DNA of 43,436 nucleotides from K189A clade bacterium (GTDB lineage Bacteria; Pseudomonadota; Gammaproteobacteria; Pseudomonadales; Azotimanducaceae): contig JABBAY010000083.1 of the NCBI GenBank assembly GCA_018607725.1, forward strand, positions 1 through 43,436, in the 5' to 3' direction. Position numbers and translations under genes: made by a program. The first letter of the stretch is position 1. Each line of letters opens with the position of its first letter. Positions 5,399 to 9,355 of the stretch are shown one piece after another. The notes beneath the pieces are model-generated. The model was given only the letters and a program-made list of their open reading frames with translations. It was not told where the DNA came from and did no database searches.

Positions 5399-7015
5399 AT
5401 GCGGAAGTTGACTCTTGGAACGATCCTCAGTTTGATGCTGTTGTGCCTGGCCGCCTGCCAGCCGGCGACGGATGCAGATCTAAAAAAAGCAGACGACACC
5501 GCCCAGGCTGCGGGACACGGTAACGAGGGCCACGGAATTAAGTGGTTTGAAGGCTCTGTGACCGAGGCTTTTAGCCTGGCAGCCACCAGCAACAAACCCA
5601 TTTTCATGTACTGGGGTGCAGTGTGGTGTCCACCGTGCCAGGAAATCAAACATACGGTTTTCAAGAGTCCTGAATTTATCGCTCAATCAAAACTCTTCAT
5701 TCCGGTTTACCTCGATGGCGATACTGACCGCGCTCAATCTGTTGGCGAGGAATATGGCGTTAAAGGTTACCCCACCATGATTATTTTCAGCCCCCAGGGG
5801 AAGGAAGTGACGCGCATTCCTGGTGGAATAGACATTTCCCGCTATAACTCCATCCTGCTCGCAAGCCTCGACAGCCTGCGTCCCACCCGCATGCTCGTCC
5901 AACTCGCCTTGAATTCGCCCGACCAACTGCTCGCCGCCGACTATCGGCAACTTGCTTACTATTCATGGGGGCAAGACTTTGAAGCACTGCCCGCGGGCAC
6001 AGACCCCGAGATGTTCAAGCAACTTGCGCAACAAGCATCGAGCCAGGACCCAGAGGCCAGCGCACGACTTTATCTGCAATATCTGGTGATGCTGGCCGCC
6101 GAGCAAGATGACGCCAATGCCAGCCTAAAAGCCGATGCTACCCCGCTCATCCGCATTTTGGCAGCGCCGGAACTAATCATCGGTACGTGGGACTACCTCG
6201 CGTATTCCGCCAGCGAGATTAGCAGTGTGCTGGATCTCGATACCTTCGCACTGGCCAGCTTACAAAATCAGTGGCAACAAGCGATGCTCGATCTGCGCCA
6301 CAACACGCGCCTATCAACCGCCGAACAATTGGGCGGCTGGTTCCCCTACCTGACTTTTTATTTCGCCGGCGATGGAGTCCCCGCGACAGTCCCCGCTGCG
6401 CAAATCGCGGCCATACGGCTTGACGCCGAGACCGCCAGCCGAGTGACTCGCAACCCCTATGCCCGACAAAGCGTCGTCAATCAAATCAGCTATCTGCTCG
6501 AAACAGCCGGACTCAACGACGAAGCCAAACAGTTATTGCTGGTAGAGTTGGAAAAATCTGCAGCGCCCTATTACTTTATGAGCAATCTCGCCGCCCTGGC
6601 AGAAGCCGCCGGGAGCATTGATGAAGCCCTTGAATGGCGGCGCAGAGCCTATGAAGCGAGCACAGGCCAGGCTACTCGCTTGCAGTGGGGCGTCAGCTAT
6701 GTGCGCAGCCTGATCCGCCTCGCACCGCAACAGCAAGGGGACATCAACGCGACAGCGCTGGCCCTGCTGAACGAGTTGACCCGGCACCAGGATGGTAATC
6801 GTGCTCTTGAGGACGCCTTTGCGGGACGCAATTTCAGGGTCCTGCGACGTCTCAATACGGAACTCCATGACTGGCAAAGAACCGAAAATGTTGACCGACT
6901 TGGGGCTTTTGACGCTCGCTTGGGCGCACTCTGTGAACAACTCGACAAAGCCACCACGGCGATGGCTCACTGCCAATCTTTGCTCGCTATCCATGTCCTT
7001 GATATGCCACAGTAG
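5399..7015 (+). CDS. Thioredoxin-fold lipoprotein with long helical C-terminal region
   Basis: This 538-residue protein begins with a lipoprotein signal peptide ending in LAAC (Cys20), with Gln at +2, which predicts an outer-membrane anchor facing the periplasm. A thioredoxin domain follows (about residues 48-160) with WCPPC at 76-80 and the cis-proline segment GYPTMIIF. The remaining 370 residues are alanine- and leucine-rich and look helical, perhaps TPR-like near residues 390-440. The architecture recalls thiol-disulfide proteins of the DsbD C-terminal/thioredoxin_7 type. It sits 129 bases before an exported peroxiredoxin that lacks a standard cysteine codon at its active site. I infer that it may reduce that enzyme or another periplasmic thiol partner. 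Confidence 0.85.
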   Translation: MRKLTLGTILSLMLLCLAACQPATDADLKKADDTAQAAGHGNEGHGIKWFEGSVTEAFSLAATSNKPIFMYWGAVWCPPCQEIKHTVFKSPEFIAQSKLFIPVYLDGDTDRAQSVGEEYGVKGYPTMIIFSPQGKEVTRIPGGIDISRYNSILLASLDSLRPTRMLVQLALNSPDQLLAADYRQLAYYSWGQDFEALPAGTDPEMFKQLAQQASSQDPEASARLYLQYLVMLAAEQDDANASLKADATPLIRILAAPELIIGTWDYLAYSASEISSVLDLDTFALASLQNQWQQAMLDLRHNTRLSTAEQLGGWFPYLTFYFAGDGVPATVPAAQIAAIRLDAETASRVTRNPYARQSVVNQISYLLETAGLNDEAKQLLLVELEKSAAPYYFMSNLAALAEAAGSIDEALEWRRRAYEASTGQATRLQWGVSYVRSLIRLAPQQQGDINATALALLNELTRHQDGNRALEDAFAGRNFRVLRRLNTELHDWQRTENVDRLGAFDARLGALCEQLDKATTAMAHCQSLLAIHVLDMPQ

Positions 7016-7131: not shown

Positions 7132-7137
7132 AAGGAG
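7132..7137 (+). promoter_or_regulatory. Ribosome binding site of the peroxiredoxin
   Basis: AAGGAG ends seven bases before the ATG at 7145. This near-perfect site supports the view that the interrupted frame downstream is a translated gene and not a decayed one. Confidence 0.75.
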
Positions 7138-7144
7138 AACAACG

Positions 7145-7669
7145 ATGAAATTTTATCAACGGGTACTCGCCGTCTGGGTCATCGCGACAGCCTCAGCAAC
7201 TGCGGCAGAATTAAAGGTCGGCGACTCGGCACCCGACTTCCGTCTGCCAGGCAGCGACGGGCACACCTACTCCCTAAACGACTTCAGGGACAAGCAATTC
7301 GTCGTTATCGCGTTTTTTCCTAAGGCTTTTACCGGTGGCTGAACTCTCGAATGCAAGGCGCTGCGTGACAGCGACCAGGAAATTCGTCAGTTTGATGTCG
7401 CCTACTTTATGGCGAGTGTTGACAGCCTTGAGGACAATAAAGCCTTTGCTGAAAAGAATGGCGCCAGCTTCCCAATCTTGTCTGACGCTGACAAGCAGAT
7501 GAGCCAAGCCTTTGGGGCCCTGTCTCCCGGCGGCCTGGCCCGGCGCTGGACGTTCTATATTGATCGCCAAGGCATCGTTCGAAAAATTGATAAAGCGGTC
7601 AGCCCCCGCACGGCAGGCGCTGAGCTGGTCAAAAACCTACAGGCGCTGAAGGCCCCGAGACGGCCCTAA
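7145..7669 (+). CDS. Exported peroxiredoxin, probable selenoprotein (UGA = Sec66)
   Basis: One frame runs from ATG 7145 to TAA 7669 with a single in-frame TGA at 7340-7342, giving 174 residues if it is read through. Upstream it encodes a signal peptide (ending near SATAA) and the AhpC/TSA opening LKVGDSAPDFRLPGSDG. The peroxidatic motif reads FPKAFTGG-TGA-TLEC, where family members have GGCT. Downstream, the frame continues without a gap through FPILSDADKQM and the WTFYID strand. The TGA therefore replaces precisely the peroxidatic cysteine, as in known selenocysteine peroxiredoxins. Cys70 is placed to form a selenenylsulfide with residue 66. A SECIS-like hairpin follows. The alternatives are a sequencing error or a C-to-A type mutation of TGC; termination there would leave a useless 65-residue fragment. 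Confidence 0.82.
7348..7386 (+). promoter_or_regulatory. Candidate bacterial SECIS element
   Basis: Within the peroxiredoxin coding sequence, CGCTG (7359-7363) pairs with CAGCG (7369-7373) around the five-base loop CGTGA. GG (7357-7358) pairs with CC (7375-7376) past a bulged A, and CGAAT (7348-7352) pairs with ATTCG (7382-7386) below an internal loop. The loop begins 21 bases after the TGA and has G in its second position. Both fit the bacterial SECIS model as I know it: a short apical stem-loop roughly 16-37 bases from UGA, with a G early in the loop. SelB would bind this hairpin to deliver Sec-tRNA. The pairing was found by eye. Confidence 0.65.
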
Positions 7670-7786: not shown

Positions 7787-9355
7787 GTGACACTAGCATT
7801 GACACAGGCACTGTTGGCGGGCCACGGCGTGCAACACGCTTGCACGAATCCGCGGTGTATTGAAACGCATATATCCTGGATCGTGTTGTTGGGAGAATAT
7901 GCCTACAAGATCAAGAAGCCCCTCAATTTGGGCTTCCTGAATTATAGTACGCTAGCCCTGCGCAAATTTTATTGTGCGGAGGAAATACGCCTGAATCGCC
8001 GTACTGCCAAGGATCTGTACCTGCAGGTAGTTGCTATCAGCGGCACAGCGGCGGCACCCGTGGTGACTGCCATTGACTCTGGCCAACAGAGCACCGCGGA
8101 GGTCTTTGAATATGCGGTAAAGATGCGCCGGTTTCCCCAATCCCAACTACTTACGGCGCTGGCACAACACGATCAACTCAATGAAACTGTCGTTGAATCC
8201 TTGGCGCGGACGATCGCCCGTTTTCATCTGAGTCTGGCAAAGACAGTACCTGAAGCATTCCAACCACGAGACCGTATTCAGGGGCCCGTACTAGACAATT
8301 TTAGACATCTGTTGGCGCTGGCCCTGCCAGAGCGACGGCAACTGTTAACCGATTTACAACGTTGGAGTGAAACAGAATACCAGCGACTCGAGGCCTGTCT
8401 GCAACGACGTTGCGAGCAAGGCAATATTCGCGAGTGCCATGGCGATCTGCATCTCGACAATATTCTATTTGATGGTCAACAGTGCATTGTGTTTGATTGC
8501 ATCGAATTTAATCCGGCGCTGTACTGGATTGATACGGCCAGCGATTTCGCGTTTACCGCCATGGACCTGCAAATTCGCACTCACGCAGATCACGCGCGCC
8601 AACTACTGAACGAGTATCTCGCCCTTACCGGCGACTATGACATGCTCCACGTCTTTCACTACTATTTGGTTTATCGTGCCCTCGTCAAAGCTAAGGTTCA
8701 TGCCATTCAGGCCGGACAGTCGAGGGGCCAGGCGATCCATGAACACCATGATCAATGTTGGCGCTACCTTCGCCGCGCCCAAGACTATTGTCAGCCTGAA
8801 CCACGGGGCATGGTCTTGATGTGTGGCTTTTCCGGCAGCGGCAAAACCACCATCGCCCGTCAACTTGCTCAATCCACGGGCTTTATCCACCTGCGTTCCG
8901 ATGTTGAGCGCAAACGGTTGTTCGGCCTAAGCCATGATGCTAATAGTCAACAACTAAACCTCAACATCTACACGGCTGAAGCCGATACACTCACCAAATC
9001 GCGCCTGTTAGACCTCAGCCAAGAGATCTACAACGCGGGCTACGGTGTGATTATTGACGCCACTTTCATCCGCGCGGACTGGCGTCATAGCTTTCTAAGC
9101 CTTGCCCGCCAGCGATCGACACCCATCAGGATCCTTCAGTGCCAAGTGTCCGCAGACGAGGCGCGAACTCGCCTGGCCAATCGACAGGGCGACGCCTCAG
9201 AGGCGACCTTCGAGCAGTTCCTGGCCCAGCAAACTGCCTTTGACCCATTTACCGACGCCGAGCAAAGCCTATTGGTCACCGTTAACACACAGGAGGCAAG
9301 TGAGATAACATCAACTCTGACCGCCCTGACCCACTGGTTCCAGACACCTGACTGA
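7787..9355 (+). CDS. Two-domain protein: aminoglycoside phosphotransferase-like kinase + P-loop (AAA_33) kinase
   Basis: This 522-residue protein fuses two phosphotransferase folds. The N-terminal part (about 1-330) is APH/choline-kinase-like, with the catalytic ECHGDLHLDN segment near residue 218 followed by FDCIEFN, which supplies the metal-binding aspartate. The C-terminal part (about 335-520) is a small P-loop kinase with GFSGSGKTT near residue 346 and the later HLRSDVERKR segment, like the gluconate- or zeta-toxin-type nucleoside and sugar kinases. The fusion is a recurrent but functionally uncharacterised family. The start is GTG, preceded by a GGGGGT ribosome binding site. It is probably cytoplasmic. 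It is not evidence of drug resistance: the APH fold is shared with many metabolic kinases. Confidence 0.88.
   Translation: MTLALTQALLAGHGVQHACTNPRCIETHISWIVLLGEYAYKIKKPLNLGFLNYSTLALRKFYCAEEIRLNRRTAKDLYLQVVAISGTAAAPVVTAIDSGQQSTAEVFEYAVKMRRFPQSQLLTALAQHDQLNETVVESLARTIARFHLSLAKTVPEAFQPRDRIQGPVLDNFRHLLALALPERRQLLTDLQRWSETEYQRLEACLQRRCEQGNIRECHGDLHLDNILFDGQQCIVFDCIEFNPALYWIDTASDFAFTAMDLQIRTHADHARQLLNEYLALTGDYDMLHVFHYYLVYRALVKAKVHAIQAGQSRGQAIHEHHDQCWRYLRRAQDYCQPEPRGMVLMCGFSGSGKTTIARQLAQSTGFIHLRSDVERKRLFGLSHDANSQQLNLNIYTAEADTLTKSRLLDLSQEIYNAGYGVIIDATFIRADWRHSFLSLARQRSTPIRILQCQVSADEARTRLANRQGDASEATFEQFLAQQTAFDPFTDAEQSLLVTVNTQEASEITSTLTALTHWFQTPD

Follow-up and report, generated by a model that had tools for sequence, protein, structure and literature searches.

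The gene at positions 7145–7669 of the window, meaning the whole 43,436-nucleotide stretch of DNA that was analysed, is almost certainly a real selenoprotein gene. Its product sits in the PrxQ/Bcp–AhpE neighbourhood of peroxiredoxins, and the peroxidatic residue is predicted to be selenocysteine (Sec). The frame is intact around a single TGA, the genome carries the Sec machinery, the TGA is conserved among relatives, the SECIS hairpin that follows it is under constraint, and the peroxiredoxin active site is conserved. The gene comprises the following features:

7132–7137, forward strand: ribosome binding site AAGGAG, 7 nt 5' of the ATG, recognized in the sequence
7145–7669, forward strand: selenoprotein peroxiredoxin gene (almost certain), with ATG at 7145 and stop TAA at 7667–7669; 174 amino acids including U66
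7145–7207, forward strand: predicted signal peptide MKFYQRVLAVWVIATASATAA, with the putative cut after residue 21, called from the sequence
7340–7342, forward strand: TGA codon, predicted to specify selenocysteine U66 at the peroxidatic position, from the translation and the homologue alignment
7352–7354, forward strand: TGC codon of Cys70, the candidate resolving cysteine of a UxxxC arrangement, from the alignment and the model
7357–7376, forward strand: bSECIS hairpin GGCGCUG-CGUGA-CAGCGACC, whose 5-nt loop lies 21 nt beyond the TGA

When TGA is translated as U, the frame is interrupted only at 7340–7342 and is open on both sides, as an earlier note on this DNA had described. The match to the AhpC-TSA domain spans the TGA (Pfam, E = 3.2e-32, 111.5 bits against a cut-off of 26). 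The TGA lies exactly where that note had placed it, at the peroxidatic cysteine: U66 is part of the active-site motif PxxxTxxU, here PKAFTGGU followed by T, and the corresponding residue of homologues that have no TGA is Cys. The ribosome binding site and the final stop are also intact, as claimed. A mechanical open-frame filter is passed by 35 TGA-split frames in the window, the peroxiredoxin being the one with a protein-family match. Since no NCBIfam model is matched above its own cut-off, annotation probably keeps splitting the gene in two; the split had been foreseen, with the refinement that the downstream piece, started at the internal ATG 7409, would be 86 residues long. A DNA search found no phage homologue of the gene.

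That the TGA is no random stop mutation, as the note had argued, is borne out by the relatives. The comparison of codons that it had proposed gives TGA in close homologues with a minority of Cys: 13 of the 20 nearest homologues in relatives contain exactly one TGA, at the U66 codon, and the remaining 7 have Cys, while at the best 80 loci in named genomes this codon is TGA in 70 cases and TGC or TGT in 10. The TGA loci, with frames open on both sides, include the long single-contig chromosomes OX638346 and OX638323. An in-frame TGA that aligns with the Cys of homologues and is kept in relatives is one of the marks of a bacterial selenoprotein.

The hairpin consists of seven pairs and one bulge, with a folding energy of -10.0 kcal/mol. 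The bSECIS model (PMC13188914) describes a loop of 3–9 nt, an upper stem of 4–16 bp, a G in the first two loop positions, a distance of 16–37 nt from the UGA and an MFE of -7.5 kcal/mol or lower; the window hairpin agrees with every one of these constraints, its G being at loop position 2 and followed by U. Taken alone, it has a modest z-score of -2.15. The loop CGUGA is present in all 61 distinct TGA genes versus 2 of 17 distinct Cys homologues, and the inner three stem pairs, likewise found in 61/61 TGA genes, occur in 3/17, 17/17 and 9/17 of the Cys homologues. One of the 61 (L116) carries a compensatory double change in the stem, from G-C to C-G.

Across 38 non-redundant TGA genes, synonymous variation was compared at 31 degenerate columns where the amino acid is conserved. 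The codons over the hairpin, +6 to +9 (GCG CTG CGT GAC), have the lowest synonymous entropy and are the four least variable of the 31 columns, a result that a random choice of four columns equals once in 31,465 when relatedness is ignored. The Cys homologues are free of such constraint over these codons. The conserved, codon-constrained hairpin is the best single argument for a UGA that is translated as Sec and against a mere defect; it comes in addition to the observations from which the earlier note had drawn its selenoprotein reading, which is supported. No Rfam family matched the hairpin, either in the whole window at gathering level or in the SECIS region at a permissive level. RF00031 had no match in the window's own genome and equally none in control genomes, hence the search is uninformative. 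Bacterial SECIS elements are often unlike one another (review PMC13188914).

The genome from which the window comes (G000) is a draft of 3.4 Mb in 249 contigs with 93% completeness. It contains all four of selA, selB, selC and selD, the genes that the note had proposed to look for and a further mark of a bacterial selenoprotein, and the possible objection of a missing selB or selC falls away. The selA and selB genes overlap (SelA, 581.7 bits, cut-off 268; SelB, 439.6 bits, cut-off 242), the tRNA-Sec encoded by selC scores 65.9 bits (gathering score 47) and has the anticodon tca (UCA), and SelD scores 262.6 bits against a cut-off of 125. The SelD frame has no TGA and is long, at least 661 amino acids, a length that suggests the known fused form. 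Among 38 relatives, SelB is above its cut-off in 25. The genome G019 has a Sec peroxiredoxin gene (L040, G019:C5) directly 3' of selB on the same strand, with a gap of roughly 100 nt. SelD genes with one in-frame TGA are also seen in relatives (G024:C210, G017:C33 and G007:C37) and probably encode Sec-SelD.

Two other accounts of the TGA can be set against these data. If the base was misread or misassembled, or if a nonsense mutation arose recently, the true codon would be TGC or TGT or the gene would be dead, and this would suit a window taken from a draft of 249 contigs and a protein of which Cys forms exist. However, the same TGA, in frames open on both sides, recurs in 70 of 80 independent assemblies (the best 80 loci), and the hairpin codons are synonymously constrained in the TGA genes only; the conserved TGA refutes this account at the level of the family, and for the window itself it has hardly any probability left. 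A single in-frame TGA would likewise be seen if TGA were generally reassigned, as in genetic codes 4 or 25, or if a near-cognate tRNA inserted an ordinary amino acid. This too is extremely improbable, given that TGA terminates 9 of the 28 long ORFs in the window, that the closest homologues of the peroxiredoxin gene themselves end in TGA, that the aligned residue in non-TGA homologues is Cys, and that a full Sec pathway in the genome is accompanied by a SECIS hairpin in the gene.

The AlphaFold model of the protein has a mean pLDDT of 91 and a peroxiredoxin fold, and its best PDB matches in Foldseek are Bcp1 (3drn, 9.9e-17) and AhpE (1xvw). P59, T63, position 66, C70 and R134 are invariant in 33 sequences, which comprises the PxxxTxxC(U) motif and the active-site Arg. 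All 80 homologues, whether of the Sec or the Cys form, have the Cys at +4 from position 66, and in the model it shares helix 64–75 with U66. Residues 1–20 have low pLDDT. All 91 homologues scored have a hydrophobic segment ahead of the mature domain, and an AxA-like site can be picked out by eye; because this leader is so constant, the protein is predicted to be exported and periplasmic.

It is unlikely, though less so than either of the accounts above, that the selenoprotein is no exported peroxidase, being held by an N-terminal membrane anchor or acting as a UxxxC thiol-disulfide oxidoreductase. The signal-peptide cleavage site is a call by eye, and the UxxxC spacing differs from that of E. 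coli Bcp, whose two Cys residues lie five residues apart. Against this stand the hydrophobic leader in 91/91 homologues, the invariance of PxxxTxxU and Arg134, both typical of peroxiredoxins, the match of the fold to peroxiredoxins and the lack of the thioredoxin UxxC motif.

In the preferred reading, that of an exported Sec peroxiredoxin, the UGA would be decoded by SelB with Sec-tRNA(Sec), guided by the hairpin 21 nt downstream, and the protein would leave the cytoplasm through the Sec export pathway. The selenolate of U66, at the start of the active-site helix, would reduce a peroxide and become a selenenic acid, which the invariant Cys70, one helical turn away, would resolve to a selenylsulfide. 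The latter may then be reduced by a thioredoxin-fold protein of the periplasm, for which the lipoprotein-like product of the neighbouring upstream gene is a possible candidate:

5399–7015, forward strand: lipoprotein-like thioredoxin-fold protein with a WCPPC motif, adjoining the peroxiredoxin gene on its upstream side; Thioredoxin_2 and Thioredoxin_7 matches

This gene adjoins the peroxiredoxin gene in four genomes of the genus (G000, G002, G003 and G004). In G001 and G013 the two are not linked, and many genomes with the peroxiredoxin yield no match to the thioredoxin-fold protein at E <= 1e-10, which excludes it as a general partner; it is possibly the reductant, a candidate suggested by its position and fold. 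A search for conserved neighbours found no partner common to the Sec peroxiredoxins. The downstream gene (window 7787–9355) encodes an aminoglycoside-phosphotransferase-like kinase domain and AAA_33, and no link to the peroxiredoxin is seen.

Marine Sec peroxiredoxins (TxxU, COG1225) have been known since 2005–2008. In the Sargasso Sea, 43 genes made them second in abundance among the known selenoprotein families (PMC1088965), and the GOS data contained 253 Sec peroxiredoxin genes (PMC2398784). The earlier note was right that such proteins are known from marine metagenomes, but it overstated the novelty of this one, as TxxU Sec peroxiredoxins are already among the commonest selenoproteins of both sets. 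The Sargasso Sea and GOS proteins (COG1225/pfam00578) share with the window protein the AhpC/TSA domain, the TxxU motif, a bacterial SECIS and a marine origin, and the window branch likely overlaps the GOS set. In the parts of the GOS paper reached by a term search (PMC2398784), nothing is said of signal peptides, periplasm or gammaproteobacterial hosts.

Among defined families, Bcp/PrxQ (PRK09437) and AhpE (3drn, 1xvw) are nearest to the window protein in fold and sequence, yet it differs from them in the predicted Sec for Cys, the predicted export and the UxxxC spacing, and it scores 84.5 bits where the PRK09437 equivalog has a cut-off of 140. PrxU (NF040737) is likewise a thioredoxin-dependent peroxiredoxin with Sec at the peroxidatic position, its Sec form being known from Peptoclostridium. 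Unlike PrxU, the window protein has a leader peptide and a Cys at +4, and its score of 53.8 bits is below the cut-off of 270 for that equivalog. The scores stay under the cut-off for every NCBIfam model matched. A literature search on Woeseiaceae, Pseudohongiella and periplasmic Sec-peroxiredoxin, in a collection with few subscription papers, found no description of an exported Sec peroxiredoxin in this group, and the predicted exported UxxxC branch across marine Pseudomonadales, probably in Ca. Azotimanducaceae, looks new.

Among 295 genomes of the order that were sampled, 43 have close homologues, in both Sec and Cys forms; genomes with the Sec form belong to two families or more. The Cys forms of the same predicted exported peroxiredoxin in other Pseudomonadales (for example L081 and L101 of the K189A clade, G027 and G034) share the leader and Cys70 with the window protein; their codon 66 is TGC or TGT and they lack a conserved hairpin, in contrast to the TGA and hairpin of the window gene. 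With the active-site residue masked, 88 sequences gave a tree, rooted at its midpoint, on which three changes of the Sec/Cys label are enough and the well-supported branches make all three necessary. Nested in the Sec group are two Cys clades, one of K189A and one of L088, L096 and L098, an arrangement that on its simplest reading suggests two Sec-to-Cys changes, the direction depending on the midpoint root. The Cys-form K189A genes L101 and L132 keep the loop letters CGTGA in a broken stem, likely relics of such a change. The gene with the compensatory stem change (L116:3151) lies on a contig labelled Acidobacteria and branches with Cys forms; this may reflect gene transfer, an old lineage or a binning error.

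The selenoprotein reading is also supported by other TGA-bearing peroxiredoxin-like genes in the same genome, of which there are two and which make at least two more candidate selenoproteins. One (L143:1624, TGA at about G000:C125:20577) encodes a 165-residue AhpC/TSA protein with RGHW-U-PYC and no leader seen. The other (L145, G000:C58:1598–1981, reverse strand) encodes a peroxiredoxin-like protein with a leader and SSDW-U-SYC, and the loop of its hairpin CCAGCU-CGUGC-AGCUGG closely resembles the CGUGA of the window gene. Three further TGAs were rejected as Sec codons: those of the paralogue on G000:C192 (L039) and of L041 lie upstream of the start, and that of L042 comes after the domain. 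Other genomes of the family also have TGA-bearing peroxiredoxin-like and ResA-like genes (L043–L049), which suggests a family selenoproteome rich in thioredoxin folds.

In a 2006 survey, FdhA was the only selenoprotein of the Pseudomonadales (PMC1794560). Here, no FdhA-type match with a TGA was found in the 24 genomes checked (G000–G032), many of them with SelB, so the Sec trait does not rest on formate dehydrogenase in these bacteria. A SelW-like Rdx had no match in G000. The balance leans slightly towards the view that in marine Pseudomonadales (Ca. Azotimanducaceae, Pseudohongiellaceae/OM182 and neighbours) the Sec trait persists without a Sec formate dehydrogenase, by means of thioredoxin-fold selenoproteins that include a widespread exported UxxxC peroxiredoxin.

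The gene is of interest for its branch of predicted exported proteins, for the hosts of that branch and for this FdhA-independent upkeep of the Sec trait. Through it, marine selenoproteins of a class described mainly from unassigned metagenome reads gain a host, a genome context and a predicted export signal, and the nested Sec and Cys clades, with likely SECIS relics in some of the Cys forms, offer a natural system for asking what makes an enzyme that meets peroxide retain or give up Sec. If the view of the Sec trait given above is true, it would mean a selenium-based defence against peroxide outside the cytoplasm, in bacteria that are probably aerobic.
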